Shown here: in pieces, positions 1,978 through 56,500 of the stretch | Numbering within the stretch: the first letter of the stretch is position 1 | How the letters are laid out: every line of letters begins with the position of its first letter | NCBI RefSeq assembly: GCF_041320595.1 | Contig: NZ_CP166625.1 | Location: forward strand, 2,664,001-2,728,000 | Direction: 5' to 3' | DNA: 64,000 nucleotides | DNA from: Pleomorphomonas sp. PLEO | GTDB lineage: Bacteria; Pseudomonadota; Alphaproteobacteria; Rhizobiales; Pleomorphomonadaceae | Position numbers and translations under genes: made by a program | The notes under the pieces: model-generated | What the model saw: the letters and a program-made list of their open reading frames with translations, nothing else | What the model was told of the DNA's origin: nothing | Database searches by the model: none

Positions 1978-2201
1978 TGTGCGGTCCTTAGAAGCATCCG
2001 CTTTTCCTAGGAAGCCGCTGACTTCTAGGGAAAAGCGGAGGCTGACAAACAAAAGGCTGGGGCGAGGCCGGGTAGCTCCCTAGCGTGCCGGCTCTTTGGG
2101 CCGGCTATCGGTTTTCAATTATAGACTTTCGGCGAAGATCTACCAACTGCATTGCCGCGTGGCTCCCTTGCGCGGCGGGCATTGGGTGCCAATAATCGGC
2201 A

Positions 2202-2873
2202 ATGACAGCGGAGAGCCGATTGGCCAACGATTTTATCCTATCCGACGCAGGGATTGGCGCCTTGCTTCTCGACGTCGCCTCCGGCGGTGCCTTCGACGAG
2301 GAGCGGCAGGCGCGGCTCCTGGCGCTTGCCGAAAGTCTCACCGGCAGCGATGGCGTGGACGATGTCGTGCCCGGCATGAACAACCTGATGGTGGCCTTCG
2401 ATCCGCTGACGATCGACGCAGGCGCGATGGAGCGACGCCTTGTCGACGGCTGGCGGAGCGCCGTTGCGCGCGTGGGAGATGGCCGGACGCATGACATCGC
2501 CGTGGTTTATGGCGGGCCGGATATCGAGGGTTTCGCGGCCGACCTCGGCCTGTCCGTCGACGAGGTGGCTGAGCGGCACGCCGGCGCCGTCTATCGGGTG
2601 GCGGCGATCGGCGCCATGCCCGGCTTTCCTTATCTTTCGGGCCTCGATCCGGCGCTGGCGATGCCGCGCCGGGCTGTGCCTCGCCAAGGCGTGCCAAAAG
2701 GGGCGGTGATCGTCGGCGGCGGACAGGCCGGCATCATGCCGATCACGGCTCCTTCGGGCTGGCACATTGTCGGCCACACTGATTTTGAACTGTTCGATCC
2801 GCATCGGGCGGCCCCGGCGACGCTGAAGCCGGGCGATACGGTGCGCTTCACCATTGCGGGAGTGAGGCGGTGA
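2202..2873 (+). CDS. pxpB: 5-oxoprolinase subunit B (KipI / allophanate hydrolase subunit 1 family)
   Basis: About 223 aa, the normal size for the KipI/PxpB family. With PxpA and PxpC it forms the ATP-dependent 5-oxoprolinase that opens pyroglutamate to glutamate. Characteristic segments are PGMNNLMVAFDP, HAGAVYRVAAIGAMPGFPYLSGLDP, PRRAVPRQGVPKGAVIVGGGQ and the C-terminal PSGWHIVGHTDFELFDP. Its last codon overlaps the GTG start of pxpC by 4 bases, so the two are translationally coupled. Unusually, pxpA lies on the opposite strand 740 bases downstream and converges on this pair. Confidence 0.9.
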   Translation: MTAESRLANDFILSDAGIGALLLDVASGGAFDEERQARLLALAESLTGSDGVDDVVPGMNNLMVAFDPLTIDAGAMERRLVDGWRSAVARVGDGRTHDIAVVYGGPDIEGFAADLGLSVDEVAERHAGAVYRVAAIGAMPGFPYLSGLDPALAMPRRAVPRQGVPKGAVIVGGGQAGIMPITAPSGWHIVGHTDFELFDPHRAAPATLKPGDTVRFTIAGVRR

Positions 2874-3826: not shown

Positions 3827-4188
3827 AGCGGTGTGCCCCAGCCGACGGTGTCGCCATCTTTGGCGAGCGCTCTGCCGAGCGTCAGGTCGGCGGCGGCGAT
3901 AACCGGCAGCAACAGGCCATTGGCTTCAACGAAGGCTATCGTCTCGCCCTTTGCGATCTGGTCGCCCTCGGAAAAACGCGGGGCGCCTTCGAGGGGATGC
4001 GCCGACCGGAAGCGGCCGGGCGAGCTCGCGGTGGCAAAGGTTGGCGGCGGTTCGGCCAGGACCGGCACGGACGCCTCTTCCGTCGCAAAGCGCAGCCTGA
4101 GATGCGCTGTGCCGGAGCGTATGTTGACGGTGGCGAGGCCTTGTCCATCGAGCCGGCGGACGACAGCTTCGATCTCTTCGAAGGTCAT
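3811..4188 (-). CDS. biotinyl-domain-like protein lacking the biotin lysine
   Basis: 125 aa, last gene of the minus-strand pxpA-BCCP-this run, overlapping the preceding BCCP stop by 4 bases (ATGA). The C-terminal half has the biotinyl/lipoyl-domain pattern (hydrophobic hammerhead: GDQIAKGETIAFVEA... followed by the mirrored half ending in GTPLYETR). At the place where a carrier has EAMKM this protein reads EANGL (residues 88-92), so no biotinylatable lysine is present at the hairpin tip. It resembles a degenerate second carboxyl-carrier subunit and probably has a structural or regulatory role with the oxoprolinase proteins; that role is inference from position. Confidence 0.7.
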   Translation of the reverse strand: MTFEEIEAVVRRLDGQGLATVNIRSGTAHLRLRFATEEASVPVLAEPPPTFATASSPGRFRSAHPLEGAPRFSEGDQIAKGETIAFVEANGLLLPVIAAADLTLGRALAKDGDTVGWGTPLYETR

Positions 4189-4613
4189 GACGGATCGTCC
4201 GGGGCAAGGCGGAACAGCGTCGAGCCACGCGTTACCAGGGCACCGTTCTCCGCCCCGACTGACACAACGCGGCCGGCCCGGTCGGCCTCGATGGGGTTCA
4301 GCATCTTCATGGCTTCAAGCAGGCCGATGGTCTGCCCCTCCTCGACACGGTCGCCGATCTCGACGAAGGGCGGGCTTTCTGGCGATGACGATCGATAGAA
4401 AGTACCGGTCAGACCGGAGACGATTGTGTGGGCTTCCGGCGAGGCCTGCTTTCGTGCGGAAGCGATCACCGGTGTGGCTGGTACGCGTGGCCGCGCGGCG
4501 GCGGCGCCATCCTTCACCAGATGAATGCGGACATCGCCCTCTTCGAACTCGATTTCCAGAAGGCCGGAGTCGTTGAGCAGCGCGCCGAGGCGATCGAGAA
4601 GCGTGTCGTCCAT
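4185..4613 (-). CDS. biotin carboxyl carrier protein (AccB-like)
   Basis: 142 aa. It has an N-terminal segment resembling AccB (LLNDSGLLEIEFEEGDVRIHL), a short Ala/Pro-rich linker and a C-terminal biotinyl domain with GLTGTFYRSSSPESPPFVEIGD and the canonical EAMKM, placing biotin on Lys103. A longer frame extends to 4790 but the ATG at 4613 overlaps the pxpA stop (TGATG), the usual coupled arrangement, and matches the AccB N-terminus. It would carry CO2 on biotin. There is no biotin carboxylase gene in the window, so it must borrow one encoded elsewhere or work in a non-carboxylating context. It could be a second accB dedicated to lactam or oxoproline metabolism. Confidence 0.85.
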   Translation of the reverse strand: MDDTLLDRLGALLNDSGLLEIEFEEGDVRIHLVKDGAAAARPRVPATPVIASARKQASPEAHTIVSGLTGTFYRSSSPESPPFVEIGDRVEEGQTIGLLEAMKMLNPIEADRAGRVVSVGAENGALVTRGSTLFRLAPDDPS

Positions 4614-5395
4614 CAGGGCTTGCTCGCGAAGGAGGCGAGCACGATGCCCTCGATGGCGAGACGTTCGCGCAAGAGCCGCGCCGTCACCACCGCCGTCGGG
4701 TTGTCGCCGTGGACGCAGATGGAGTCGACCGATGTCGGCAGCACCTTGCCGGTGACCGAGACGATCTCTCCGGTCTTGACCATGCGGCAAGCCCGTTCGA
4801 CCGCCTCGGCGGGGTCGTGGACGAAGGCGCCGGGCCGGGCGCGCGGCATCAGGCTGCCGTCGTCCTGATAGCCGCGATCGGCGTAGACCTCCGAGTAAGT
4901 GCGAAGGCCGGCGTCGCGGGCGAGCCGCTCCTGCTGGCCGTGGGCGATGGCGAGGCAGGCAAGCGAGGCGTCAACGCCCTTGATCGCCCTGATACTGGCC
5001 GCGGCGATATCGGGATCGGCAACCGCGAGGTTGGCGAGCGCGCCGTGCAGCTTCACATAGGCAATCGGATGGTTGGCCAGCGTCGACAGGGCCGACGCCG
5101 CGCCGATCTGGTAGGCGATCAGCCGCTCGATTTCGCCGGCCGAGTAGGGCAGGGCGCGCCGGCCGAAGCCCCAGAGATCGGGAAAGCCGGGGTGGGCACC
5201 GACGGTGACGCCGCCGGCCTTGGCGAGACGGAAGGTCTCGACCATGATTTCCGGGTCGCCGGCATGAAAGCCGCAGGCGACGTTGGCCGACGTGACCACA
5301 TCAAGCAGCGCAGCATCGTCGCCGATGCGGTAGGCGCCGAAGCCCTCGCCGAGATCGGCGTTGAGATCGACGGCACGAGAGAGGACGGCTGTCAT
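4613..5395 (-). CDS. pxpA: 5-oxoprolinase subunit A (LamB/YcsF family)
   Basis: About 260 aa, the usual family length. The start AVDLNADLGEGFGAYRIGDD, the SANVACGFHAGDP segment, TVGAHPGFPDLWGFGRR, YVKLHGAL, AFVHDP and VDSICVHGDNP all match LamB/YcsF proteins. With PxpB and PxpC it hydrolyses 5-oxoproline using ATP. The open frame continues to 5566, but the ATG at 5395 gives the conserved N-terminus. First gene of a three-gene coupled run (pxpA, BCCP, BCCP-like), converging on pxpBC. Confidence 0.9.
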   Translation of the reverse strand: MTAVLSRAVDLNADLGEGFGAYRIGDDAALLDVVTSANVACGFHAGDPEIMVETFRLAKAGGVTVGAHPGFPDLWGFGRRALPYSAGEIERLIAYQIGAASALSTLANHPIAYVKLHGALANLAVADPDIAAASIRAIKGVDASLACLAIAHGQQERLARDAGLRTYSEVYADRGYQDDGSLMPRARPGAFVHDPAEAVERACRMVKTGEIVSVTGKVLPTSVDSICVHGDNPTAVVTARLLRERLAIEGIVLASFASKP

Positions 5396-5557
5396 CGCGG
5401 CGGTCTCCGGTTCATTCTGTCCAATATAGAGGCTCGGGCGGCGAACGGAAGCCGGCAAGCCGGCATTCACGAAGCTCTGAAATGCGCCGGAGCACCGCCG
5501 CTGGCTTTCGCGCCTGACAATGGATAGGGTGCGCCGCGCAACCCGCCGGACCAGACC

Positions 5558-7021
5558 ATGACCCATATTTCGCCGCCCGAACAGCCGGTTCTGAACGAAG
5601 ACGACAAGACCAAGATCGTTATCACTTCCCTGCTGTGCATGTTCCTGGCGGCGCTCGACCAGACCATCGTTACGCCAGCTCTGCCGGTGATGGGCGCCTC
5701 GCTCGGCGGCGGCCAGTGGGTATCGTGGATCGTCTCGGCCTATTTCCTGACGGCGACTGCGGTGACGCCGCTTTACGGCAAGCTTGCCGACCTCAAGGGA
5801 CGCCGGCCGGTGCTCTATGCCGGCGTCGGCATCTTCGTGGCGGGCTCGCTGATGTCGGCCTTGGCACCGTCGATGGCGGTACTAATTGCCGGACGCGCCT
5901 TGCAGGGCCTCGGCGGCGGCGGGCTGATGGCCCTTGTCCAGACCATCATCGGCGACGTGGCGCCGCCGCGCGAGCGCGGCAAATACATGGTCTATATCGC
6001 CGGTATCTGGGCGACCGCGAGCATCGCCGGACCGGTGCTGGGCGGCGTCCTCGCCGAGTATGTCCACTGGTCGGCCATCTTCTGGCTGAACCTGCCGCTT
6101 GGCGCGATTGCCGTCGGCCTGTCGCTGAAGCCGCTCTCCAAGCTGCCGAACATTCGTCGCGACCATAAGCTCGATATCCTCGGCGCGGTGATAATCATCG
6201 CGGCGACGCTGCTGTTTCTTCTGGCGCTGACGCTGGGCGGACATTCCTATCCCTGGAGCTCGCCGCCCATTCTGGGAATGCTGGTGGTCTCGGCCGCGGC
6301 CTTCATCCTGTTCGCCTGGTACCAGTTCCAGCCGGTCGAGCCGCTGCTGCCGCCGCGCATTTTCGGCAACAAGGTGATTGCACTCACCTCCGCCACGGCC
6401 TTCCTGGCGACGGCCGGCATGTTCGGACTGTCGGTCTACTACCCGGTTTATCTGCAGCTCATCGAAGGCTTCGGCGCCTCAGCGGCCGGTCTCGCCTTGC
6501 TCGGGCCGATGATCGGCGCGGTGGCCGGGTCGAGCATCTCGGCGCGCATTCTGCGCAAGGGCCGACATTACAAGCGGCTGCCGATGATCGGCAGCCTCAT
6601 ATCGCTGGTGTCGCTGACGGTGGTCGGCTTCCTGGTCGGCAATGTCTCCTTCTGGGTGATCGAGGTCCTGGCCCTTCTCACGTCCTTTGGCCAAGGCACG
6701 TTGTTTCCGGTCGGTATGGTCATGGTGCAAAACGCCGCCGACCCGCGCGACCTCGGTACGGCGACCGGTGCCTATACCTTCGTTCGCTCGCTGGGCTCGG
6801 TCGTCGCCATCGCCGTACTGGGGGCCATCGTCGGCAGCGCCGGCATTGGCGACCATATCAGTGTCGGCGGGCTTGATCCTGCGGCTCGGGAGAGTGTCGT
6901 TGCCGCCTTCCGGGCGCTGTTCCTTGCCGCCGCCGGGGCGCAGCTCTTGTCGCTGGTCCTGCTTGCCCGGATCGAGGAACGGCCGCTTCGTGGCCGTACG
7001 CCGCCGCCGGTCGAAGAGTAA
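5558..7021 (+). CDS. DHA2-family MFS drug:H+ antiporter (EmrB/QacA type)
   Basis: 487 aa inner-membrane protein with the length and hydrophobic pattern of 14-helix DHA2 transporters. The first helix carries FLAALDQTIVTPALPVMG (motif D1) and the loop after helix 2 carries GKLADLKGRRPVLYAG (motif A). GRALQGLGGGGLMALVQTIIGD and the motif C-like ATASIAGPVLGGVLAEY follow. It should export a hydrophobic compound in exchange for protons; the substrate is not evident. No adjacent TetR or MarR repressor and no membrane-fusion partner are present, so it probably acts alone in the inner membrane. Confidence 0.9.
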   Translation: MTHISPPEQPVLNEDDKTKIVITSLLCMFLAALDQTIVTPALPVMGASLGGGQWVSWIVSAYFLTATAVTPLYGKLADLKGRRPVLYAGVGIFVAGSLMSALAPSMAVLIAGRALQGLGGGGLMALVQTIIGDVAPPRERGKYMVYIAGIWATASIAGPVLGGVLAEYVHWSAIFWLNLPLGAIAVGLSLKPLSKLPNIRRDHKLDILGAVIIIAATLLFLLALTLGGHSYPWSSPPILGMLVVSAAAFILFAWYQFQPVEPLLPPRIFGNKVIALTSATAFLATAGMFGLSVYYPVYLQLIEGFGASAAGLALLGPMIGAVAGSSISARILRKGRHYKRLPMIGSLISLVSLTVVGFLVGNVSFWVIEVLALLTSFGQGTLFPVGMVMVQNAADPRDLGTATGAYTFVRSLGSVVAIAVLGAIVGSAGIGDHISVGGLDPAARESVVAAFRALFLAAAGAQLLSLVLLARIEERPLRGRTPPPVEE

Positions 7022-7063
7022 AGTTCTGGCCGACCACCTGGGTCGGTGGGGGGAGAAGTTTGA

Positions 7064-7372
7064 ATGATCCTGCATTGCGTGTTCATGAAGATGCCGGCCG
7101 CCACGTCGTCGGCCGACATCCTGAAGCTCTATGGCGCGGTCGCGGCGCTGAAGTCGTTCATTCCGGGCATGATCGACTTCAAGGCCGGTCCGAATGAGTC
7201 ACCTGAAGGTCTCGGTCATGGCTTCGAACACGGCTTTGTCGTCACCTTTACCGACGCAGCGGCGCGCGATGCCTATCTGATCCATCCCGAGCATGTGAAG
7301 GTCGGCGACAAGATCGTGGCGGCGACCGAAGGCGGGCTGGATGGCGTCCTCGTGTATGATTTCGAGGTTTGA
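7064..7372 (+). CDS. Dabb (stress-responsive A/B barrel) domain protein
   Basis: 102 aa, one Dabb domain. Typical marks are the N-terminal ILHCVFMKM strand, a central 'FIPGMIDFKAGPNESPEG' strand-loop, FEHGFVVTFTDAAARDAYLIHPEH, and a C-terminal VLVYDFEV strand. Members form ferredoxin-like dimeric barrels; most have no known substrate. A GGGGGAG ribosome-binding site lies 8 bases before the ATG. It follows the DHA2 exporter by 42 bases; that gap holds a 7-bp hairpin without a T-run, so co-transcription is possible. Confidence 0.8.
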   Translation: MILHCVFMKMPAATSSADILKLYGAVAALKSFIPGMIDFKAGPNESPEGLGHGFEHGFVVTFTDAAARDAYLIHPEHVKVGDKIVAATEGGLDGVLVYDFEV

Positions 7373-7523
7373 AGAGGCACTTTTTTAGCGTCTCTAAAGG
7401 CTTCCATATCGATTCAACCGCCAAGGCATTGTCGGCGGGCGGTGTTGGCTGTACATATGAGGAGTGTTGCGGACGATACTTTCGTCTGAGTGACCGCTCC
7501 TTTTCCGCCATCCATGTAGGCCC

Positions 7524-8300
7524 ATGTCTTTCACCGATCCGCACGACCTCGCCGCCCATTTGCCCGCGCCCGACCGCCTCGCTCTGTTCCTTGATGTCGA
7601 TGGCACGCTGATCGGCCCCACCTACGCCGACCGTGAGCGCGGCATTGCCGCCGATCGCATTGCCCTGATCGACCGGCTGTTCGATCTCCTGGGCGGTGCG
7701 CTGGCCATCGTCAGCGGCCGTTCGGTGGAGACCGTCGACCCGATGTTCAAGCCGCTGAAGCTGCCAGTGGCGGCGCTGCAAGGGGCCGACCGCCGCTTTG
7801 CCGACGGCCGCCGCTTCACCCCGGTACAGACGCCGGAAGAACGCAAGGCGCTCGATGAAATCGCCTTGGCGGTCAAGGCTGCCTATCCGACCATGGACAT
7901 TCAATGGAAGATCGGCGCGCTGGCCATCGTCTACAACGAGGGCGAACCGCTCGTCGCCGAGGTCACGGCGCTGGCCGCGCGCCATTCCGGCGGCCACGTC
8001 GAGGTGATCCCTGGGCGGGTCTCGATCGATGTGGTGCCGCGGGGTGCCAACAAGGGCTCGGGTATCGCCTTCCTGATGGAACACCAGCCTTTCCAAGGCC
8101 GGATTCCGGTGCATGTCGGCGACGACATTCCCGACGAGCCCGGTTTTGACAAGTCTCTCGATCTCGGCGGTTACGGCATCGCCATCGGCCGCAACGTGGC
8201 CGGTGTCGATCGTCGCCTGCCCGACCACGAGGCGACCTGGGCCATGCTCGCCGCTTATGAAGCGCGCTGGCTGGACGACGAACGCGCCGCCGCCCAATAA
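7524..8300 (+). CDS. otsB: trehalose-6-phosphate phosphatase
   Basis: 258 aa HAD-superfamily hydrolase. The nucleophile motif is FLDVDGTLIG (Asp residues near the N-terminus), followed by ALAIVSGRSVETVDPMF, the cap-region substrate lobe, and the late motif HVGDDIPDEPGF with the Mg-binding acidic pair. VSIDVVPRGANKGSGIAFL is typical of OtsB and places the conserved lysine. It removes phosphate from trehalose 6-phosphate, the last step in making trehalose as an osmoprotectant. The synthase otsA is not adjacent and is not in the window. A hairpin terminator follows immediately. Confidence 0.85.
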   Translation: MSFTDPHDLAAHLPAPDRLALFLDVDGTLIGPTYADRERGIAADRIALIDRLFDLLGGALAIVSGRSVETVDPMFKPLKLPVAALQGADRRFADGRRFTPVQTPEERKALDEIALAVKAAYPTMDIQWKIGALAIVYNEGEPLVAEVTALAARHSGGHVEVIPGRVSIDVVPRGANKGSGIAFLMEHQPFQGRIPVHVGDDIPDEPGFDKSLDLGGYGIAIGRNVAGVDRRLPDHEATWAMLAAYEARWLDDERAAAQ

Positions 8301-45319: not shown

Positions 45320-45434
45320 GCGATGGGGGGAGGGAGCCTGCTCGGCAGCTAAGATGGCCTGTTTAGCCTTCGCCATTGTCGTACGATGATGATGAAGGCT
45401 GTAAATCTGAGGCCGTCTGCTTATTCGAGGTGGT

Positions 45435-47282
45435 TCACGACGGCTCTAGCGTTGTTCCACCGTGTTGCAGGGCCCAGTAGCCGCCCTTGAGCGCCATCAA
45501 TGCGTCGTGGGTGCCCGCTTCGCGGACGTTACCTGCCTCCATATAGACGATCAGGTCCGCGTCGCGGATGGTCGAGAGCCGGTGGGCGATGACAAAGCTC
45601 GTTCGGCCGCGGCGCAGCTCGGACATGGCTTTTTGGATCAGCATCTCCGTGCGGGTGTCGACCGAGCTCGTCGCTTCGTCGAGAATGAGGATGGGCGTGT
45701 CCAGAAGGAAGGCGCGGGCAATGGTCATCAGCTGGCGCTGACCCTGTGACAGCGCCGCTCCGGCATTCTCCAGCACCGTGTCGTACCCCAAGGGCAGGGT
45801 GCGGACAAAATCATCGACGTGGCAGCGTTGCGCGGCAGCGATCACGTCTTGGCGGGGGCTCTCGGGGCGGCCATAGGCAATGTTGTCGTGGATCGTGCCG
45901 GTGAAAAGCCAAGCGTCCTGCAGCACCATGGCGATCACGCCACGCAATTCCGAGCGCGTGAGATCCCGGATGTCGATGCCGTCGAGACGGATCGCGCCAT
46001 GGTCGATTTCGTAAAACCGCATCAAGAGATTGACCAGCGTGGTCTTTCCAGCTCCGGTCGGGCCGACGATGGCAATCATCTGGCCAGGCTGCGCTTCAAG
46101 GCTCACATCCTCGAACAAGGGTTGATCGGGCTGATAGCGGAAGCGGACATGCTCGAAGGCGACGTGGCCGGAAACCGGCTGTTCCAGCCGCCCTTCGCCG
46201 GCTTTCTCCGACGACATTTCCGGCGCGTCGAGCAGCTCGAATACCCGCTCGGCCGACGCCAGCGCCGACTGGACCTGTGCCACCATGCTCCCCAACTGCG
46301 AGACCGGCTGGCCGATTTGCCGGATATACTGGATGAAGGCCTGCAATTCGCCCAGCGACAGCCCGCCGGCCAGCACGCGGAAGGCGCCCGCGACGACCAC
46401 CGCGACATAGGCGAGGTTGGTCACCACCATGGTTGCGGGCTGAATCAGGCTGGCCAGGACCTGCGCGGTCCGGCTGGCCTTGGTCAGCGCTTCGTTCTGA
46501 TCGGAAAAGCGCGCCTCGATCCGGCCGCGCGCGCCGAACACGCGGATCAGGGTCTGGCCGGTGAAGCTTTCCTCCACCGTTGCGTTCAAATTTCCCGTTT
46601 CGCGCCATTGGGCGGTGAACTGCGGCCCGGAGGCGCGCGTGAGAAGCCGCGTCAGGGCCAGGGAGACAGCAATGGCCGTGACTGCGACGATCGCCAGCGG
46701 CAGGGAGAGGACGACCATCATCGAGAGAACGCCGACGACCGTCAGCAGCATCATGAGGACCTGGCTGGCGATCTGCTGCAGATTCTGGATCACATTGTCG
46801 ATGTCGTTGGTGAACCGCGACAACACCTCGCCACGCGGCCGCGCGTCGAACCAGCTGAGCGGCACACGCGACAGCTTGGCCTGAGACCGGCCGCGTAAAT
46901 CACTGCCGAGCTTCTGCACCACCTCGTTGATCAGCCGGGCCTGCGCCAGATTGAGCAAGGAGGCGACCAGATAGATCAGCGCGACGATCATCAGTTGTCG
47001 GACGAGCGCGGCGTTGCTGAAGCCGTCGCTGACCAGAAGATCCGTGGCCTTGCCGAGCTGCCATGGCCCGACCGTGCTGGCTGTCACGCTGCCGATGGTC
47101 AGGAGCACGGTACCGATGAGGACGCGTCGACTGTTGCCGAGAGCACGCCAGAGGGCCAGCGCCGCGTTGCGGGTGTCTTTGGGCTTGCCTCCGCCAAGCG
47201 CCGCGCCAGGCCCCCTATGCCCGCGCATTCCGGGGATCGGCTGTGAGGCGACAGCCGGGCGAGAGTCATCCATCTTGGTCAT
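45435..47282 (-). CDS. ABC exporter half-transporter, catalytically canonical subunit
   Basis: 615 aa with an N-terminal six-helix exporter domain and C-terminal ATPase. Walker A VGPTGAGKTTLVNL, signature ALSQGQRQLMTIARAF (LSQGQ instead of LSGGQ), Walker B ILILDEATSSVD with the catalytic Glu, and switch VIAHRLSTIRDAD. It overlaps the partner gene upstream by 4 bases, and together they form a heterodimer of the YheH/TM288-type. LSQGQ is usual for this subunit. Substrates of such exporters are drugs or lipids. Confidence 0.9.
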   Translation of the reverse strand: MTKMDDSRPAVASQPIPGMRGHRGPGAALGGGKPKDTRNAALALWRALGNSRRVLIGTVLLTIGSVTASTVGPWQLGKATDLLVSDGFSNAALVRQLMIVALIYLVASLLNLAQARLINEVVQKLGSDLRGRSQAKLSRVPLSWFDARPRGEVLSRFTNDIDNVIQNLQQIASQVLMMLLTVVGVLSMMVVLSLPLAIVAVTAIAVSLALTRLLTRASGPQFTAQWRETGNLNATVEESFTGQTLIRVFGARGRIEARFSDQNEALTKASRTAQVLASLIQPATMVVTNLAYVAVVVAGAFRVLAGGLSLGELQAFIQYIRQIGQPVSQLGSMVAQVQSALASAERVFELLDAPEMSSEKAGEGRLEQPVSGHVAFEHVRFRYQPDQPLFEDVSLEAQPGQMIAIVGPTGAGKTTLVNLLMRFYEIDHGAIRLDGIDIRDLTRSELRGVIAMVLQDAWLFTGTIHDNIAYGRPESPRQDVIAAAQRCHVDDFVRTLPLGYDTVLENAGAALSQGQRQLMTIARAFLLDTPILILDEATSSVDTRTEMLIQKAMSELRRGRTSFVIAHRLSTIRDADLIVYMEAGNVREAGTHDALMALKGGYWALQHGGTTLEPS

Positions 47283-49063
47283 GCGGCATCCTCTGCCACG
47301 GCCCGCTGTGACCGCACGATATCGGCATAAACAGCGCAGTCCTCGATCAGCGCCGCATGCGGCCCGAAGCCGACGGTCTTGCCGCGATCGAGCACGAGGA
47401 TGCGGTCGGCGTCCTGGATCGATGCGACACGCTGGCTGACGATGACTGTCACCGCGTGAGCGGTGGCGCGCCGAAGTTCCGCCCGCAACCGCGCATCGGT
47501 GGCCTGATCGAGCGCCGAGAAGCTGTCATCGAACAGGTAGAGATCGGCGTCGCAGACCAGCGCTCTGGCGATGGCGAGCCGCTGTCGCTGTCCGCCGGAA
47601 AAATTGGTCCCGCCCTGGGCGACGGGCGCCGCCAGTTTGCCGGGCAGCGCGCGGATGAAATCGGCGGCCTGCGCGATCTCAAGGGCCTGCCAGAGCTTCG
47701 CTTCATCGGCCAGGGGATTGCCGAGCCGCAAGCTGTCGGCGACGGTGCCCGAGAAGAGATAGGTTTTTTGCGGAACGTAGCCGATCCGTCCGTTCAGCGC
47801 CTCGGGCGCGATCGCCCGCAGATCGACACCGCCGAGCAAAACGCGTCCGGTGTTCGGATCGTCCAGCCGCGCGATCAGATTGACGATGGTCGACTTGCCT
47901 GAACCGGTGGCTCCGATGATGCCGAGGGTCTCACCGGGGGCAACCTCGAAGTCGATGTTTTCGAGCACCATGGCTTCCGCGTGTGGGTAACCAAAGCTGA
48001 CCGCCTCGAAGCGCAAGGGCAGCCCGGTGCCTTTTTCTGCCAGAGCTTTCGGATGAGCCGGCGGACCCACCATGGCCGGGCTCCGCAGGAGGTCGCTGAT
48101 GCGCCGTGCACTGACCAGGGCCCGCGGCAGCAGCACCACCAGCATGCCCATCATCATCACGGAGATCAGGATCAGCGAGACATAGGACAGGAAGGAGATC
48201 AGCGCGCCGATCTGTAGATCGCCGCTGATGATCCGGCTCGAACCCGCCCATATCAGGGCGACGGAGGCAAGCTGCATCACGGCGGTCAGCGTGGGGCTGA
48301 TCGCCGTCATCAGCCGCCCGGCTCGGAGCGCGGTGTCGGTCAGGTCCGTGTTGGCCGCCCCAAACCGCCGGCTCTCGCTGCCTTCTTGCAAAAACGCGCG
48401 AATGACCCGAATGCCCTCGATCTGCTCGCGCAGGATCGTATTGACCCCATCGAGCTGCTTCTGCATGCGCTGGAACAGCGGTGTGGCGCGAAACGTCAGA
48501 AAGCCGATGATCAGCGCCAGGATCGGCACCACGATCAGCAACAGCCTCGACAACTGCGCATCTTGGCGCAGCGCCATGATGGCACCGCCAATCCCCATGA
48601 TCGGCGCGATGACGATCATGGTCAGCGTCATGGTCAGCATGGTCTGTACTTGCAGCACGTCATTGGTGCAGCGGGTGATGAGGGAGCCGACACTGAAGCT
48701 CTGGACCTGTGCCAGGGCGAGGTTGTGGACCTTGGCAAAGACGTCGGCCCGCAGGGTCTGGCCAACCCGGAAGGCGATCCGCGCGCCGAGGGTGACGGCA
48801 GCGACGCTGAGCACGAGTTGCACCAGCGAGGCGGCCATCATCAATCCGCCATAGCTCAGGATCGCGCCGGTGGACTTGGCGACAATGCCTTTGTCGATGA
48901 TATCGGCGCTAAACCCCGGCAGCAGCAGGGCCGCCGAAACCTGCCCCAATTGGCACGCCAGCAGGCCAAGGAGGGCCCAGCCATGCAAGCGAAGCCGGGC
49001 GATCCAACCTGTCGCGGGCGCGGCCGGGGCGGCGTGGACGATCGAGGATTGGGTTGCGGTCAT
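47279..49063 (-). CDS. ABC exporter half-transporter, degenerate-site subunit
   Basis: 594 aa. Six-helix exporter domain, then an ATPase with Walker A IGATGSGKSTIVNL and a canonical signature NFSGGQRQRLAIARAL. Walker B reads LYLFDDSFSALD, with Asp where the catalytic Glu should be, and the switch region reads VIVSQRVASIQDAD, with Gln in place of His. This is the degenerate subunit typical of asymmetric bacterial exporters (YheI/TM287, BmrC). It pairs with the downstream half-transporter, which contributes the competent site. First gene of the two-gene operon. Confidence 0.9.
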   Translation of the reverse strand: MTATQSSIVHAAPAAPATGWIARLRLHGWALLGLLACQLGQVSAALLLPGFSADIIDKGIVAKSTGAILSYGGLMMAASLVQLVLSVAAVTLGARIAFRVGQTLRADVFAKVHNLALAQVQSFSVGSLITRCTNDVLQVQTMLTMTLTMIVIAPIMGIGGAIMALRQDAQLSRLLLIVVPILALIIGFLTFRATPLFQRMQKQLDGVNTILREQIEGIRVIRAFLQEGSESRRFGAANTDLTDTALRAGRLMTAISPTLTAVMQLASVALIWAGSSRIISGDLQIGALISFLSYVSLILISVMMMGMLVVLLPRALVSARRISDLLRSPAMVGPPAHPKALAEKGTGLPLRFEAVSFGYPHAEAMVLENIDFEVAPGETLGIIGATGSGKSTIVNLIARLDDPNTGRVLLGGVDLRAIAPEALNGRIGYVPQKTYLFSGTVADSLRLGNPLADEAKLWQALEIAQAADFIRALPGKLAAPVAQGGTNFSGGQRQRLAIARALVCDADLYLFDDSFSALDQATDARLRAELRRATAHAVTVIVSQRVASIQDADRILVLDRGKTVGFGPHAALIEDCAVYADIVRSQRAVAEDAA

Positions 49064-49124
49064 CGTTCGCCTTTTTGCTCAGTGCCCGACCGGAGACTCT
49101 GCCTGGGCGGGTATCTGGCTTCGA

Positions 49125-49215
49125 TTTCTGCGCTTGCCGTGCTCACGAACTGCTTTTGAAAATGCACTTTTGCTGGAGTTGCTCGAAGTTCGCTCCGCTC
49201 CGGTTCTCGTGCCTC
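49125..49215. repeat. dispersed palindromic intergenic element, second copy
   Basis: TTTCTGCGCTTGCCGTGCTC near 49127 and GCTCCGCTCCGGTTCTCG near 49190 correspond to the two arms of the element at 10914-11063 (TTTCTGCGCTTCCGGTGCTC, GCTGCGCTTCGGTTCTCG). The core between the arms differs. It lies in the 364-base gap between the ABC exporter and nrsF, which otherwise holds only the decayed GPR tail. Confidence 0.5.
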
Positions 49216-49333
49216 TCGACAGTTCCCATCCAGGACATCGGTTCGCGCCAATTTTCCCCATGTTAGGTTACCATCAGCGCTTGGAAAGTGCCGCTGAATT
49301 CGACGGTTGCCGCTCAAAGCTGAGTGTTGTCCG

Positions 49334-49424
49334 TCAGGCTCGGCCGAGCTTGCCGCTGGCGTGGGCCAGAAGCGCGTAGACCTTGCCGGTATCGGAGTGC
49401 AGGGCGCTCTTGGCGAGGATAGGG
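49334..49424 (-). pseudogene. relic copy of the 3' end of the growth-pole-ring gene
   Basis: Bases 49335-49396 match 53578-53639, the last codons of the giant GPR gene, with about 5 differences in 62; similarity fades after that. In the same reading sense it encodes SDTGKVYALLAHASGKLG, compared with SDTGKVYTLLAHASGKLG in the intact gene. The original stop TGA has become CGA and a new stop follows two codons later. No start codon precedes it, so it is a non-functional fragment left by duplication or rearrangement. Confidence 0.7.
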
Positions 49425-49427
49425 CAA

Positions 49428-50063
49428 TTACCAGCGAAGGACGCGTCGGCCCAGGAGAAAGCCGGCGGCGGTTACCACCAGTATGCCGAGCGCGTACCAG
49501 GTTGCCAGAAAGAGCGGGCTGTCGTCCGGGCAGTGCCAGGCATAGATGGCGGCTGCGATGCCGCTGGCGGCAAGGCCTGCCACTGCGCCGGCTTTGCCGG
49601 GGCTTTCCGGGGCTCCCTGACGGACGGAATAGAGGATGGCGGCGAGCGGGGCGATTGACAGCATGGGGACGAAGACGAGGCAGAAGCTCGAAAAATGTCC
49701 CTCAAGGCTGGTTCCCCAAGCCGCCCGCGGCACGACGAACAGTTCGGCCGCGATGCCAATGAGCAGGGCTGTGAGCGGCAGGAGAAGCGCCAGTGCCGCC
49801 GCGCGCAACGACACGCCCGGCTTGCCGATCAGGAAGGCGAGGCGTGTGGAGGTGATCGCCAAGAGCAGGGTGAGGCCGAGCTTGAACATGACGCGCGGCG
49901 TCTCGATCGCTTCGACCATGTTCTTGCGGATGCCGAGGGTGGAGAGCAACAGCAAGGCCGAGATCACCACTCCGATCACCAGCGCGATCAGGAAAACGTG
50001 GCCAAAGCGAACGCTCGTGCGCGCATCCTTTGCCAAGAGGTTGATCAGGTCATCCGTTTGCAC
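49428..50063 (-). CDS. nrsF: NrsF-type anti-sigma factor (DUF1109)
   Basis: 211 aa integral membrane protein with about six helices. N-terminal cytoplasmic MQTDDLINLLAKDART is the DUF1109 start. Cys128 (FSSFCLVF) and Cys178 (AWHCPDD) are 50 residues apart, the same spacing as the two cysteines (131 and 181) reported as needed for metal sensing in Caulobacter NrsF. It should hold SigF inactive until metals such as copper, chromium or cadmium disturb these cysteines. It overlaps the sigF end by 14 bases and is the last gene of the buf operon. Confidence 0.88.
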   Translation of the reverse strand: MQTDDLINLLAKDARTSVRFGHVFLIALVIGVVISALLLLSTLGIRKNMVEAIETPRVMFKLGLTLLLAITSTRLAFLIGKPGVSLRAAALALLLPLTALLIGIAAELFVVPRAAWGTSLEGHFSSFCLVFVPMLSIAPLAAILYSVRQGAPESPGKAGAVAGLAASGIAAAIYAWHCPDDSPLFLATWYALGILVVTAAGFLLGRRVLRW

Positions 50064-50616
50064 GTCTGTCGCTCCGATAGAGGGCCGCCAATCCTTTGAG
50101 CGCCCTGTGTAGCGCCACCCGTACGGCGCCTTCCGTCATTTGCAGCCGCTCGGCCGTTTCGCGGATACCGGCACCACCGAGCGAGATGGAGCGCACGATG
50201 TCGCGCTGTGGATCGCGCAAGCCTTCCAGCAGGCGGTCGACATCGACGCGGTCGGCGCCCTCGTCGTGAGGGACGGCTTCCAGCGTCTCCATGACATCCT
50301 CGATCGGGACGCTGACGTGGCGGCCTCGCCGACGCAGGCTGTCGACCAGCTTGTTGCGCACGATGGACGACAGCCATGGGCCGACCGGCCGGGAGGTGTC
50401 CCAGGTGCCGCGCTTCAAGTGAACCGCCAGCAAAACTTCCTGTACCACGTCCTCCGCTTCGCTCGGTGAAGCTCCGAACTGGTCGCAGCGCCGGCGGGCG
50501 ATCGATCTGAGATAGGGCGTTATGGCCTTCAGAAAGCGTTGATAGGCTAGCGTGTCGCCGGCCATCGCCGCGCACATCCAGGCCGCCCATTCGTCTTCCC
50601 GGGCCGAATGGCTCAT
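50050..50616 (-). CDS. sigF: ECF sigma factor, SigF type
   Basis: 188 aa. Sigma region 2 spans about residues 20-95 (SEAEDVVQEVLLAVHLKRGT, WLSSIVRNKLVDSLRR) and region 4 about 125-180 (LRDPQRDIVRSISLGGAGIRETAERLQMTEGAVRVALHRALKGL). This is the NrsF-linked SigF group. The ATG at 50616 (MSHSAREDEWAAW) is chosen; the frame open to 51072 runs antisense through DoxX sequence. It lies between doxX and nrsF on the buf strand, so it is probably made from its own target operon. Confidence 0.9.
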   Translation of the reverse strand: MSHSAREDEWAAWMCAAMAGDTLAYQRFLKAITPYLRSIARRRCDQFGASPSEAEDVVQEVLLAVHLKRGTWDTSRPVGPWLSSIVRNKLVDSLRRRGRHVSVPIEDVMETLEAVPHDEGADRVDVDRLLEGLRDPQRDIVRSISLGGAGIRETAERLQMTEGAVRVALHRALKGLAALYRSDRRANG

Positions 50617-50717
50617 CCGCCAGCACCCTCTCAGCGGGGATCCAGGTTCTGAACGCATTGGCGGGTAAACGGCAAGAGAACGCAAGCGCCACCTTTTCCT
50701 TGTCCAAACGACGTCCG

Positions 50718-51239
50718 TCACGCTCGAGCAGAGCCAAGGCCGGAGCCCCTGACGATCAGATAGTCGAGCGAGGCCCGACCAGGCCCATGGCGCATGATGG
50801 CAAGCGCCATCGCCGCCCAGGTGATGTGGATCGGCCAGCCATCGGGCACGGTCAGCTCGACGACGGCTGTCATCAGGAGCAGGCCGAGGCCGGCAAAACG
50901 CGTCGCAAGACCAAGGACAAGAAGCGTCGGGAAGACGATCTCGCCGCATCCGGAGAGGAAAGCCATCACCGCCGGCGCGGGGAAGGGGTAGGGGCCGCCC
51001 GGCAGGTGCAGCATGAATTCCTGGCTGAAAAGATCGATCGCCGTATCGTTGAGTTGCAGGAAGCCATCCCATTTCAAGATGCCCGACCGCCAGAAGGGAA
51101 CGGCGAGCGCCAGGCGAAGAGCTGCCTGGACAAAGTCCGGCGGGGCCACGGCGCGGACAAGGCTATCGGCCGTGGTAACGAGCCGCGCCAGTGAAGAAAG
51201 AACGCCCCGATGGGGCACGGACCTAGACATGCTCGACAT
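50718..51239 (-). CDS. DoxX family membrane protein of the bufferin operon
   Basis: 173 aa with four predicted helices. The DoxX marks are LRLALAVPFWRSGILKWDGF, YPFPAPAVMAFLSGCGEIVFPTLLVLGLATRFAG and IHITWAAMALAIMRHGPG. GGAGAG lies 7 bases before the ATG at 51239, which overlaps the bufC end by 17 bases. DoxX proteins accompany DUF692/DUF2063 loci very often; the role (redox or membrane partner of the peptide pathway) is not established. Confidence 0.88.
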   Translation of the reverse strand: MSSMSRSVPHRGVLSSLARLVTTADSLVRAVAPPDFVQAALRLALAVPFWRSGILKWDGFLQLNDTAIDLFSQEFMLHLPGGPYPFPAPAVMAFLSGCGEIVFPTLLVLGLATRFAGLGLLLMTAVVELTVPDGWPIHITWAAMALAIMRHGPGRASLDYLIVRGSGLGSARA

Positions 51240-52035
51240 GGCAGCTCTCCGTCTCGATGTGGGAGAAGGCGCCGGCGGCGATCATCTCGCCGATAGCACC
51301 GGAAAGGTCGAAGTCGGGTTCGGCCTCGAAGGCCGTCGCGACGGCCACCGCCAGGCATTGTCCGCCGAGTAGCGCGCGAAGAAAGATGGCGGTGCCCGGC
51401 GCCAGAAGGCGCACGGTCACCTCATCCTCGATCCGCGTTATCAGCCCGTCTTCCGGCCGGTCGTCGACGCGGCCAATCGGGTCAGCGCTCCGGTTCATGG
51501 CGAAGATGGTGACAGCCGGATGCGCTGATGAGATCAGCCGCGTGGCGGGATGCGGCTTGAAGGTCAGGGTGCCCAGATCTTCCGGCGGCACAGCCGAAAG
51601 GGCTTTGGCCATGAGGGCCGGTGCGTCGGCGGCGTGATAGCTGTCGAGCCATAAACGTTCGATGCGGGCCACGTCCGATAGCCATGGCATATCCGCGGCG
51701 TAGTCGTAGCGATCGATGAAGTCGGGGAAGCTTCGTCCATATTCGAACAGCAGCGGCGAGGTGGGCGGTGTCTCACGCACATGGAAACGGGCCATGGCGC
51801 GAAAGAAATCGGTGCCCGTGATGCGCTCCACTGCCGGGTAGACCGAGGCGAGCGCCGCGATCAAGCTGACCGTGACGTTGTTGCGGTAGACATTGTAGCG
51901 CTTGTCCGCCCGCTTGCCGCGCGGGCCTGTTACCAGCGCCGGTGTCGCGGCGTCGGGAGCGAGCAGGGCGGCCGAGAACTGACCGGCAAAATCCGTTGCT
52001 TGTGGCCTGAGCGGCAGGATGTCAGCCGAGTGCAT
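51223..52035 (-). CDS. bufC: DUF2063 protein, BufC-type partner of the MNIO enzyme
   Basis: 270 aa. The N-terminal DUF2063 domain reads [75 protein letters not shown] and [19 protein letters not shown]-terminal winged segment follows ([27 protein letters not shown]). In bufferin and related pathways this protein binds the precursor leader and forms a complex with the DUF692 enzyme. ATG at 52035 with GGGAG upstream overlaps the bufB end by 14 bases; a TTG start at 52068 is less likely. Confidence 0.9.
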
Positions 52036-52948
52036 GGATTGGCTCCCTGGTCTTGGCGTTTCGATCAAGGATCGCTTGCGCCGCCAAAGCCTCTGCCCGC
52101 AGGACCGGCCATTGGGGAATCTGGCTGTCCCACTCGATCAGCGTGGGGATCGGCCCGCGGTGGGCAATCACATTCTCATAGAGCCGCCAGACGGCATCGG
52201 TGACCGGTCCATCATGGCTGTCGATCAGCAACGGTTCGCCTTCATCATCTTCCTGCTCGGCGTGACCGGCGAGGTGGATCTCGCCGACCTTCGAAAGCGG
52301 AAAGTCGGTGAGATAGTCCAGCGCCGAAAAGCCGTGGTTGGTGGCCGAGACGAAGACGTTGTTGACGTCGAGCAACAGACCGCAGCCGGTTCGACGGGAG
52401 ACCTCGCCGATGAACGCTGTCTCGCTCATCGAGGAGGCGGCAAACAGGACGTAGGTCGAGGGGTTCTCCAACAGGATCGGCCGTCCGATCGCGTTTTGCA
52501 TCTCATCGACATGGTCGCAGACATGGGACAGCGTCGCGGCCGTGTAGGGCAGGGGCAACAAGTCGTTCAGGTAAGTGTTCACATGGGTCGACCAAGCGAG
52601 ATGCTCGGACACCAGCGCCGGCTCGTAGCGATCGACCAGGCTTTTGAAACGGCTCAGGTGGTCTCTGTCGAGCGGCTGCGGGCCGCCGAGCGACATGCAG
52701 ACACCGTGCAGGGAGATCGGATAGTCGCGGCGCACGCGTTCGAGCGCCCGATGCGGCGGGCCGCCGGCGCCCATGTAGTTTTCGGCGTGAACCTCGAAGA
52801 AACCCTGCCGGTCGGCTTCGGCAAATATCGCCGCGAGGTGTTCCGGCTTGAAGCTGGTGCCGGTTTGGCCGGACATGGAGATCGTCGGAAAGCGGAGCGT
52901 CGTTTCCGTCTTCATGGGGATGTTGGATGTCACGTCGACTTTGGCCAT
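52022..52948 (-). CDS. bufB: DUF692 multinuclear non-heme iron oxidative enzyme (MNIO), BufB-type
   Basis: 308 aa TIM barrel. The metal-binding and catalytic segments of the family run in order: [95 protein letters not shown] and [14 protein letters not shown] enzymes use two or three iron ions and O2 to modify cysteines of precursor peptides; bufferin-type members make 5-thiooxazoles. It lies 77 bases after bufA, which encodes the predicted substrate, and overlaps bufC. Confidence 0.93.
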
Positions 52949-53026
52949 CGTCGCCTCCGCTTTCCGGGATCTTTTGCTGGAGCGGGTGGGTTCCGATCAG
53001 GCTCAACCAACCTGATCGGCCGATCA

Positions 53027-53341
53027 TCAGATGTCGCGATCCAGAGGCATCAGCGAACCATGGCGGCCGCCTGGAAGTTCCAGCGAGGCGCAGGTGCCGC
53101 CCTGGGTGAACTTCCATGAGTTGCCCTGGAAATCCTTGACTGAGGTTCCCTGGCAAGTCGTCCCCGGCCCGGCGGCGCAATCATTCTGGCCCTTGAGAGC
53201 CACGCCGTAACACTTCTCCTTGTGGGCGGCGATCGCGGCATTGGCCTCCGCCTTGGTCAGCGGCGCGGCGCTGGCAAAGGTTGCGAGGGCCGAAGTGATT
53301 GCGCCGGCGAGAAGGACGGTGGTGACGGAAGTCCTCAGCAT
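53027..53341 (-). CDS. bufA: bufferin precursor peptide (DUF2282, BufA1-type)
   Basis: 104 aa. A Sec signal peptide ([20 protein letters not shown] then TFASAA, cleavage near residue 25-26) is followed by a basic segment and a core with exactly four cysteines: Cys44 (EKCYGVA), Cys55 (NDCAAG), Cys63 (TTCQGTS) and Cys84 (GTCASLE). This spacing is that of DUF2282 proteins, the precursors modified by DUF692 enzymes. The product is expected to be an exported, copper-binding modified peptide. A CGGAG box is 8 bases before the ATG. It has a C-terminal tail (about residues 90-104) beyond the core. First gene of the six-gene operon. Confidence 0.9.
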
Positions 53342-53393
53342 TGATGTTCTCCGTGTTTCAAGACGCGCCCTTTTCTATTGGGCACGCAAGGTA

Positions 53394-53419
53394 CTCGGAG
53401 GCTGGGGGGCGTTTGTTAC
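53394..53419 (-). promoter_or_regulatory. SigF-type promoter upstream of bufA
   Basis: On the minus strand GTAACA (53419-53414), a 16-base spacer and CGAG (53397-53394). The Caulobacter SigF consensus is GTAACC, 16 bases, CGAA, so 8 of 10 defined bases match and the spacing is exact. It lies 53 bases upstream of the bufA start, giving an expected leader of about 45 bases. No similar element is seen upstream of sigF itself. Confidence 0.75.
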
Positions 53420-53528
53420 AGCGAGCGCGATAACGAACGCGTGATCGGATGAAATGCAAGTGTCCTGCGTTGGGACCAACTTGCCCGCGCCTCTCGCCGG
53501 AACGCGCGAAAAGCGCTGAATCCGGCCA

Positions 53529-53558
53529 AAGAAAAAGGGCGCCGTGCGGGCGCCCTTT
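53529..53558 (-). terminator. terminator of the growth-pole-ring gene
   Basis: Perfect 10-bp stem AAAGGGCGCC / GGCGCCCTTT with a 5-base loop. On the minus strand it continues TTCTTTGG after the arm, giving a run of T. It lies 24 bases after the stop and separates the giant gene from the bufA promoter downstream. Confidence 0.85.
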
Positions 53559-53582
53559 CAATGTCGGTTATGTCCTGCAGGC

Positions 53583-56500
53583 TCAGCCGAGCTTGCCGCT
53601 GGCATGAGCCAGAAGCGTATAGACCTTGCCGGTATCGGAATTCAGATAGTTCTCGGCAAGGCGGCCGTTCGGGTCCTTCTGGACCGCTTCCTCGTAGAGA
53701 GCGCTGAAGTGGTCGATATAGCGGTCGACAGCCTCGCGGAAGTCGGTCTCGCGACCGTAGCGGCGGCGTACCTCGTCAAAGGTCTGCTGGCCCTGAAGCG
53801 TGTAGGCGCGACGTGTGAACACGTTGCCTTCACCGCGCCGGTAACGGTCCCAGAGATCGGCATAGGCCTCCGGGTCAATCGACCGGGCGATGTCGGAGGT
53901 CAGCGATCCCAGACCGTCGAGCGGGTTACCGCTCTTGGCGCCACGATCAGATGACGGCAGGCGCGGCGTCGCACCGTCCTCGTCGTTGACGCGGCGCAAG
54001 AGGTCGGAGATCCAGCCGCTCGCCCGATCACCGCGCTCGTCGGTGGCAGGCTGCTGCCGTGGCTCCGGACGGCGTTCTGCGACGGCGGGGCGGGGCGGCT
54101 GGTTGGCCGGTTGACGCGGGAAGGCGCGCGGGGTCTCGGCCACCGTCGGCTGCGACGGCTTCTGGGCCGGTAGGCTGCGGGTGACCGACGTCTGAGCTGA
54201 CGCCTGCGCACGCATCGGCACGTCCGCGACCTTTTCACCGGGCAGCTGGCGCGAGACGATCTCGGAGAGCTCGTTCAGGGCGCGGATCTGCTCGCTGACC
54301 ACGCGGCGCATGGCGGCGGTGTGCTGGCTGGTCTCTTCCGGCAGGTCGAGGACGCCACGGCTCAGATCCTCGCGGATCTGTTCCAGCTCCCGGCCGACGG
54401 CGCGGGTGGCCTTGCGCATTTCCTCGGTGGCACCGGCGAAACGGTCGACAGCCGAGCCGATGGCAGCGTTGATCTCGGAGATCAGCTCGCCACGTACCCG
54501 CTCGATGGTCACCTTCGCCTTGACGCCTTCTTCCTCGGCGCTGACCGACAGCTGCTCAAGCTGCTGGGTGACGCCGTTCATGGCCGTCTCAGCGTTGCGG
54601 GCCAACTGATAGCCGACGTCGCGGGCGCGGCGCTCGGCGTTGGACAGCGTGTCCTGGATCTGGCCGGAGATGTTCTGCAGGCTTTCGGACATCGTCTCGG
54701 TCCGCTCCTGCAGCGTGGAGACCACGCTGTCGAGCGCCACGAGGCGATCGCCGATGACGCCCTGGAGGGTGCCGCCCACCGACGACAACGCGCGGGCCGA
54801 CGACTGGAGATCGCCGGTCTGCTCGGAGAGCGATGTGGCGATGGTGCCGATGTCGGCCAGTACCGTGCGCGAGACCTCGCGCAGGACTTCGGTCGTCTCG
54901 GCGACGGTGGTGCTGGAAGCGGTCGTGTCGGCAACGACGCGATCGAGGGCGAGGCGAAGGTCGCCGGTCTGCTGCTCGAGGCCACGTTCGATGCGGGCCA
55001 GGTTGCCGGCCGCCTGATCGACGACGGAACGGAGGCCGCGGTTGGCGTCGTCCACCTGTGCCAGCACGGCGACCACGTCGGTCTTGACGCGCGTCGTGGT
55101 TTCGTCGAGCGACTGCAGGACGTCGCGGCCCTGTTCGTCGAAGGTGGCCATCAGCGACAGCGTCGCCTGCTTCAGGGCATCCGACGCATCGTTGCCGCGC
55201 TGGGTAATGGCACGGCTGACGCCTTCGCCACCCTTGGCCAGCGCCGCCAGCACATCGTTGGCGGCATTGCGGACCAGGCCAGCCACTTCCTCGCCACGGC
55301 TGCCAACGGCGTCGTCGAGGGCGCGGGTGCCCGAGAGGAAGGCATTGGCGAGATCGCCGCCACGGCCATCCACCAGATCGGCCAGCTCGGCCATGCGCCG
55401 GGTGACCACATCGACCACCTTCTCGGCACGGGTGTCCATGGCGCTCGCCGCGGCCTCGGTGCGGGCGTTGAGCACCCTCTCGAGATCGCGTGTCGCGTCG
55501 GCGAGGCGTTCGGTGGCCGACGCGATGGCGGCCGCCAGGATCTCGCTAGACCGCTCGGTTTCGCCGGCGATGCGGCCAGTGACCGCCTCGGCCGAGCCGA
55601 TGAGGTTGGAGCGGGCACGGGCAGTCTCTTCCGAGAGACGGTCGGTAACCTCGTCGATGGCGCCGATCAGGCCGGCGCGCGCCTTTTCGCTTTCGGCTGC
55701 CATCCGGCCGGTGACGTCGTCGACCGAACCGATGATGGTGTCGCGGACGCGCTCACTCTCGCCGACGAGGCGGCCTTCGACGGCGGTGATCGCCTCGTAG
55801 ACGTTCTCGCGGGCCTTCTGGCTCTCGGTGGAGAGCACGTCGGACAGGGTGGTGATGAGTTCGTTGAGCGTGCCATGCGTTTCGTCACGCAGGCTGGCGA
55901 GACGATCCTCGGCGCCCGACAACGACTGGCTGACGGCAAGCGAGGTGTTCTCGCCCTCGACCGCCAGGCGCGAGGCGGCGCCGTCGATGGCGGCGACCAC
56001 GGAGCTGCGAACCAGCTCGCTCTCGCCGGCGAGGCGCTCGGACATGCCTTCCAGCACGCTTGAGACGACGTCACGCGCCCGGACCGAACCGGTTTCCATC
56101 TCGTTGGCGATGTCGGTCATGGCCTCGGTGACGATCGTCTTGGCCCGGTCGGCCTCGAAGCGCAGCTTATCGGTGGCCGCTTCCACCGAACCAGTGAGGT
56201 CGTCGCGGACGCGGGCACTTTCCTTCTGCAGCACGGCGGCGGCGTTGATGAGAGCGCGGGCGAGTTCCTCACGGGCGTTCTCGGTCTGGCTGCCGAGCAT
56301 ATCGACGATGGAAGCGAGGCGCTGGGTGAGCGACACTTCCAGCGAGCTGGCGCGGCTGTCCAGCGTCTCGGCGACCTCGAACACCTTGGAGCCGAGCGAC
56401 ACGTTGATTTCGGCCACCTTGTCGGCCAGCGTCTCGGTGAACTCCTCGGTCTTGCGCTGCAGCGAGCGGCCGACCGCGTCGAGACGGCCCTCGATGGCAT

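Follow-up and report, generated by a model that had tools for sequence, protein, structure and literature searches.

In Buf1 clusters, the central cysteines of a precursor are converted to thiooxazoles, which gives a copper-binding peptide. The stretch of 64,000 nucleotides (nt) from Pleomorphomonas sp. PLEO analysed here as a whole and called the window (contig NZ_CP166625.1, positions 2,664,001 to 2,728,000) contains a Buf1 bufferin cluster together with the genes of an extracytoplasmic function (ECF) sigma factor of the ECF16 type, SigF, and of its anti-sigma factor NrsF. The system itself is already known, and the PLEO locus varies it by the position of the sigma pair at the tail of the operon. 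In Caulobacter, the genes CC3254-CC3257, encoding DUF2282, DUF692, DUF2063 and DoxX proteins, adjoin sigF-nrsF (CC3253-CC3252), with GTAAC-type promoters on both (PMC3511200). The preliminary description of the PLEO locus had taken this sigma pair to be separate from the peptide operon; it is instead adjacent and, by implication, divergent, since it has its own SigF-type promoter and is numbered CC3253-CC3252 against CC3254-CC3257 (PMC3511200). The whole Caulobacter cluster is induced by copper, sigF and nrsF rising too, and cells mutated in sigF are sensitive to the metal (PMC8224329). In Cupriavidus metallidurans, the gig system is induced by copper and gold (PMC10304878). Finally, a 2025 survey of Buf1 catalogues DUF2282, MNIO, DUF2063, DoxX, sigma factor and NrsF as cluster parts, with a four-cysteine rule for the DUF2282 precursors (PMC12452194).

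In PLEO, six genes occupy the minus strand of the window from 53341 to 49428, in the transcription order bufA, bufB, bufC, doxX, sigF, nrsF. All six pass the Pfam cut-offs, which bears out the gene order and the family identities given in the preliminary description. The features are, with the promoter motif of the first gene:

53420-53393, minus strand: SigF/ECF16-type promoter motif of bufA, TGTAAC-N17-CGAGT, sole exact match in the genome
53341-53027, minus strand: bufA, DUF2282 bufferin precursor, 104 amino acids (PF10048, 72.1 bits, 3.7e-20)
52948-52022, minus strand: bufB, MNIO (DUF692) bufferin maturase, 308 amino acids (PF05114, 350 bits, 8.3e-105)
52035-51223, minus strand: bufC, DUF2063 partner protein (PF09836, 2e-24)
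51239-50718, minus strand: doxX, DoxX-family membrane protein (PF07681, 6.2e-15)
50616-50050, minus strand: sigF, ECF16-type sigma factor, 188 amino acids (sigma-70 regions 2 and 4; NCBIfam PRK12512, 278 bits for a cut-off of 198)
50063-49428, minus strand: nrsF (DUF1109), anti-sigma factor, GTG start (PF06532, 176.6 bits for a cut-off of 26.8, 7.4e-52)

The overlaps reported earlier are present as well, with 14 nt between bufB and bufC, 17 nt between bufC and doxX and 14 nt between sigF and nrsF, while gaps of 78 and 101 nt separate bufA from bufB and doxX from sigF. The four cysteines of BufA (positions 44, 55, 63 and 84) follow the rule for Buf1 precursors, and its N-terminus resembles by eye the Sec signal peptide of such clusters. 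BufB passes the NCBIfam MNIO_BufB equivalog model (383.8 bits for a cut-off of 310), which classes it as a BufB-type maturase, and resembles the solved DUF692 protein 3bww and the MbnB chains; the whole genome yields one BufB match and one NrsF match. The DUF2063 and DoxX components of a Buf1 cluster are both recognized at the Pfam cut-offs, and nrsF adjoins sigF in the manner of an ECF16/NrsF pair, where a DUF1109/NrsF anti-sigma gene lies beside the sigma gene. NrsF contains only two cysteines, Cys128 and Cys178, both invariant in 10 Pleomorphomonas sequences; paired by position, without alignment, they match C131/C181 in the Caulobacter protein (PMC3511200) and C129/C179 in that of Brucella (PMC8315932).

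The reading favoured here, with a probability of about 0.64, is that of a copper-inducible Buf1 operon whose last two genes are an ECF16-type SigF-NrsF pair and in which feedback runs via the peptide operon. NrsF would hold SigF at the membrane through its two conserved cysteines, and metal stress, with copper as the presumed signal, would free SigF by a predicted release step. The freed SigF would read the TGTAAC-N17-CGAG promoter ahead of bufA, and the transcript would yield the peptide, the maturation proteins and DoxX and, by a putative read-through, SigF and NrsF as well; the BufA peptide would then be modified. The basal supply of SigF would probably come from a weak promoter between doxX and sigF.

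The evidence for the bufA motif is its conservation across the collinear loci of Pleomorphomonas, in which sigF-nrsF follows bufABC-doxX on the same strand. An ECF16-type motif lies ahead of bufA in all ten of them, and both CTGTAACAAA and TCCGAGT are invariant across the 10 genomes. In the 5.48-Mb genome of PLEO, TGTAAC-N17-CGAGT has one exact match and the reversed pattern none. The motif agrees with the ECF16 target [TC]GTAAC-N17-CGAA, one base of the -10 box being different (PMC8315932). The sequence before sigF is devoid of the motif in all ten collinear loci, so that the SigF-like motif ahead of bufA is the only one, in line with the preliminary description, and SigF-driven feedback would run through the peptide operon. 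The Caulobacter type, with sigF-nrsF divergent from bufA and a SigF-type promoter directly before sigF, is thus not found in PLEO, where the six genes share one strand.

A search of 80 genomes of relatives for BufB and NrsF, from which 20 stretches were retrieved, showed BufB in 11 of the 14 genomes of the genus, 10 of them collinear (PLEO included) and one, G007, divergent. The three other family members with a linked BufB (G017, G018 and G019) are divergent. At the level of the class, 385 genomes were sampled, with at most 7 candidates scored per genome; NrsF was matched in 80 of them, in 77 above the family cut-off, at 90 places. One fragment and the 11 weakest were excluded and 78 loci examined (76 retrieved, the PLEO window and G060), of which 32 have BufB nearby and the other 46 show none within the stretch. 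BufB lies upstream on the opposite strand in 24 of these 32 loci, five are collinear, and in three the sigma pair is 5' of bufA on the same strand. The fused layout is therefore less common than the divergent one, as had been supposed. The survey of sigF-nrsF downstream of bufABC-doxX that the preliminary description had proposed also shows that this order is not unique, since Rhizobium has it too, as do G060, G457, G253 and G349. In the third layout (L140, L142 and L147), sigF-nrsF stands immediately upstream of bufA. One locus counted among the 24, L149, has bufB and bufC on one strand and bufA, doxX, sigF and nrsF on the other.

A further named set, found with the NrsF of the genus and consisting of the best 80 of at least 548 confirmed stretches, has BufB upstream on the same strand in 26 loci, on the opposite strand in 33 and out of reach in 21. 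The 26 same-strand loci comprise 8 from Pleomorphomonas already counted and 18 titled Rhizobium or Rhizobiales. In L233 (Rhizobium sp. BK316, 1589-7984), one of the 26, about 5.5 kb lie between doxX and sigF, and sigF retains its own SigF-type motif; in L257, one of the 33 opposite-strand loci, almost 7 kb lie between bufA and sigF. No published description of the collinear order was found in listings of literature searches or in passages and one section, figures aside, of the survey of bufferin clusters (PMC12452194), and these passages do not state the order and strand of the sigma pair.

The looser pattern GTAAC-N16..18-CG was counted in 14 collinear and 32 divergent loci, L149 being excluded. 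It is credible before bufA in 13 of the 14 collinear loci (0.75 expected) and present in 29 of the 32 divergent ones (1.40 expected), where the expectations come from shuffles that preserve base composition only, here as for the palindrome below, and the loci are non-independent events; a fourteenth collinear match (L146) falls within the gene and was not credited. Before sigF, the pattern occurs in 18 of the 32 divergent loci (1.48 expected) and in none of the 14 collinear ones (0.69 expected). When a deduplicated set was searched over 200 nt, it was found before sigF in 48/65 divergent and 14/31 collinear loci, the latter exclusively from Rhizobium or Rhizobiales. Of the 18 collinear Rhizobium loci, 14, L233 included, show GTAAC-N17-CGTA about 40 nt ahead of the start codon of sigF; in R. 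oryzicola the match is at a different place, and three of the 18 have no sigF motif, one of which (BK418) shows GTAAT there, one base off. In a loose alignment, the Pleomorphomonas sequence ahead of sigF partially matches this Rhizobium promoter 3' of its -35 box, which is suggestive, and only suggestive, of a decayed form of the internal promoter.

In a quick tree (99 rows), 27 collinear loci of Pleomorphomonas and Rhizobium form one clade with a support of 100 in the SH-like approximate likelihood ratio test (SH-aLRT), Pleomorphomonas lying within the Rhizobium loci, and four collinear/divergent changes are required overall. In a careful tree (32 rows), Pleomorphomonas is sister to 14 Rhizobium loci, and three collinear Rhizobium loci fall outside. 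The related loci show three motif states or more, among them a divergent one with two SigF-type promoters and two collinear ones, with two such promoters or with one. The occurrence of these states among closely related proteins makes the contribution of an ECF sigma factor's own promoter directly testable.

Several observations weigh against feedback via the peptide operon. When up to two mismatches are allowed, the bufA motif is not enriched genome-wide (380 matches for 1118 with a control), and a genome-wide search alone therefore proves nothing. The lack of a motif before sigF is not confined to collinear loci, since 14 of the 32 divergent ones lack it too, and a congener, G007, carries the divergent layout. 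Either loss of the internal sigF promoter in Pleomorphomonas or its re-gain in Rhizobium is possible, because the sister groups, Pleomorphomonas and the internal-promoter Rhizobium, are modestly supported (83/89 and 91/86) and the three outer collinear Rhizobium loci have no internal promoter there. The doxX-sigF gap measures 101 nt in PLEO and reaches about 180 nt elsewhere in Pleomorphomonas (once the 21 nt separating the start codon from the model start are subtracted), which is long for obligate read-through, and terminator-like sites were scored within the operon genes (6 in 49300-53700 for 3.2 expected). Four products fall under the equivalog cut-offs of the nearest NCBIfam models: NrsF (99.9 bits for 300, NrsF model), BufA (24.6 bits for 60, BufA2 model), and BufC and DoxX (HvfC and HvfX models). 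Finally, a conserved block sits within the gap:

50678-50649, minus strand: block A of the doxX-sigF gap, CTCTTGCCGTTTACCCGCCAATGCGTTCAG, conserved in the Pleomorphomonas/Rhizobium alignment

The delineation of a SigF regulon by genome-wide motif search was dropped, the control outnumbering the motif once mismatches were allowed.

In the alignment, the block CTCTTGCC...ATGCG.TCA is common to Rhizobium and Pleomorphomonas, and its pattern was found in 8/10 Pleomorphomonas, 15/17 Rhizobium and 0/4 other collinear loci. Block A, which presumably resembles the alphaproteobacterial -35 element CTTGAC, may possibly be a basal promoter of sigF-nrsF, and a separate basal promoter would weaken the reading as a pure loop. 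The single-promoter positive loop of the preliminary description is consistent with the motif evidence in the genus and is partly supported.

Pushed one step further, block A would be a housekeeping promoter making SigF and NrsF constantly, sigF-nrsF would in effect be a separate unit and the collinear order would have little regulatory meaning. This alternative has a genuine chance of being correct, even if it falls well short of even odds. The block is conserved across two genera inside an otherwise variable gap, and the linkage to the peptide genes can be broken, as in L233 with its 5.5-kb interval and its own motif. The Cupriavidus rpoQ-rsqA pair is RpoD-dependent (PMC10304878), and sigF of Caulobacter receives a second input of unknown nature, its autoregulation not being strong under chromium or cadmium (PMC3511200). 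The alternative is countered by the search for a sigma-70 consensus in the doxX-sigF region, which gave no match, so that a clear sigma-70 promoter was rejected there, by a pattern search of the collinear loci that did not find block A in G001 and G012, and by the absence of terminator-like sites between doxX and sigF. The rise of sigF and nrsF with the rest of the Caulobacter cluster under copper (PMC8224329) points the same way.

A second conserved element is located upstream of the bufA promoter:

53430-53445, strandless: imperfect palindrome ATCACGCGTTCGTTAT, candidate operator, directly 5' of the -35 box

This CACG-N4-CGTG sequence precedes the -35 box of bufA by about 10 nt. Allowing at most one mismatch, it occurs in 25 of the 27 collinear loci of Pleomorphomonas and Rhizobium (0.43 expected), in 13/30 divergent survey loci (0.54 expected), nine of the 30 being exact (0.03 expected), in 2/29 divergent loci of the named set (0.56 expected) and in none of the three other collinear loci searched. 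Its conservation hints that a further regulator acts on this copper system. That such a regulator would be dominant, SigF being one of two inputs, is unlikely: the palindrome far exceeds the shuffles in the exact divergent survey loci and in the collinear loci of the two genera, but it is absent from three other collinear loci and from 27/29 divergent named loci, no regulator has been identified, and one arm is degenerate in the PLEO genome itself. The palindrome was also considered as the relic of a former divergent sigF promoter. This was rejected, since a GTTAC/GTAAC pair within 40 nt is found in only 5 of 65 divergent loci; the exact palindromes of divergent survey loci counter it too.

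The surroundings of the operon concern its origin, which is again placed in the framework of the collinear Buf1 operon with feedback via the peptide genes:

53445-49428, minus strand: presumed transferred cassette, extent alignable to the Rhizobium collinear loci
53661-53571, minus strand: 3' end of gene X (open reading frame of 2083 amino acids, present in 14/14 genomes of the genus), copy 1 of a direct repeat
49418-49328, minus strand: duplicated fossil of the gene X 3' end beyond nrsF, 91 nt, 84% identity to 53571-53661

In 13 of 17 blastn alignments with the Rhizobium collinear loci, the limits fall at 49427-49430 and 53444-53451; of the remaining alignments, three stop short on the side of nrsF and two on that of the promoter, including one that does so on both sides. 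The operon is flanked on both sides by the 91-nt direct repeat, and the remnant of gene X beside nrsF also exists in G001, G011 and G012 and in part in G010; the remaining five collinear members of the genus lack it. A cassette-free site was seen in four congeners (G003, G004, G007 and G008), where gene X is followed by the next conserved gene within about 1 kb. A genome search gave neither a BufB nor an NrsF match in G003, G004 and G008, and the divergent bufferin locus of G007 is at another place than the gene X site. In a poorly resolved tree, G003 groups among the cassette carriers, and G004 branches before them. No integrase was found among the six operon genes. Since the cassette is common to Rhizobium, flanked by a 91-nt duplication and missing at the site in four congeners, it was probably gained horizontally. 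The likeliest course would be a single entry into Pleomorphomonas, with a Rhizobiaceae lineage as the probable source and the 3' end of gene X as the site, the direction being inferred. The converse, a collinear locus that arose inside Pleomorphomonas and then passed to Rhizobium, is improbable, because its one support, the sister rather than nested position of Pleomorphomonas relative to internal-promoter Rhizobium loci in the careful tree, is opposed by the three collinear Rhizobium loci branching outside both groups, by the nesting in the quick tree, by the divergent G007, G017, G018 and G019 and by the site left empty in four congeners.

A search of plasmids with NrsF (146 records) gave at most 57.3% identity among the 30 matches listed, and one further record at 60-80%. 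Beyond nrsF, a stretch that includes an ABC transporter pair (45419-49329) is present in PLEO only among the genomes retrieved, with a 94% identical copy on another contig of G011. Compared with G001, the DNA of bufA (53027-53341) is 93% identical and the other five operon genes 77-81%, and a separate recombination of the peptide gene is possible.

The first observation is extended by a graded series of promoter states, a mobile cassette, the palindrome and the block in the gap. A bolder proposal would combine them as a rewiring, in which the sigma pair moved from a divergent position to the operon tail, lost its own SigF promoter and travels as a mobile cassette, a CACG-N4-CGTG operator of a second regulator being the remaining external input. 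This proposal is rather doubtful. If true, the polymerase would have to traverse the entire peptide operon before any regulator is made, and peptide output and regulator supply would be locked together. The cleanly bounded cassette shows how a unit that carries its own regulation can pass from one genus to another.

Compared with the known systems, the PLEO locus resembles gigPABT/rpoQ-rsqA of Cupriavidus metallidurans in having a four-gene operon beside an ECF sigma/anti-sigma pair; unlike PLEO, the Cupriavidus pair is divergent and rpoQ-rsqA is RpoD-dependent, and control of gig by RpoQ is not shown (PMC10304878). The likeness extends to RpoE7-EcfR7/SMb20527-20530 of Sinorhizobium meliloti, with its ECF16 sigma factor, anti-sigma factor, four targets including DUF692 and DUF2063 proteins, and TGTAAC-type promoters, whereas that pair is stated to be divergent and rpoE7 has its own target-type promoter (PMC6180224). 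With Caulobacter, PLEO shares the six families, the two key cysteines of NrsF and a GTAAC-type promoter ahead of the DUF2282 gene (PMC3511200). Unlike PLEO, Caulobacter has sigF-nrsF as a transcription unit of its own with a SigF-type promoter (PMC3511200), and its regulon comprises two bufferin operons and YedY (PMC3511200; PMC8224329).

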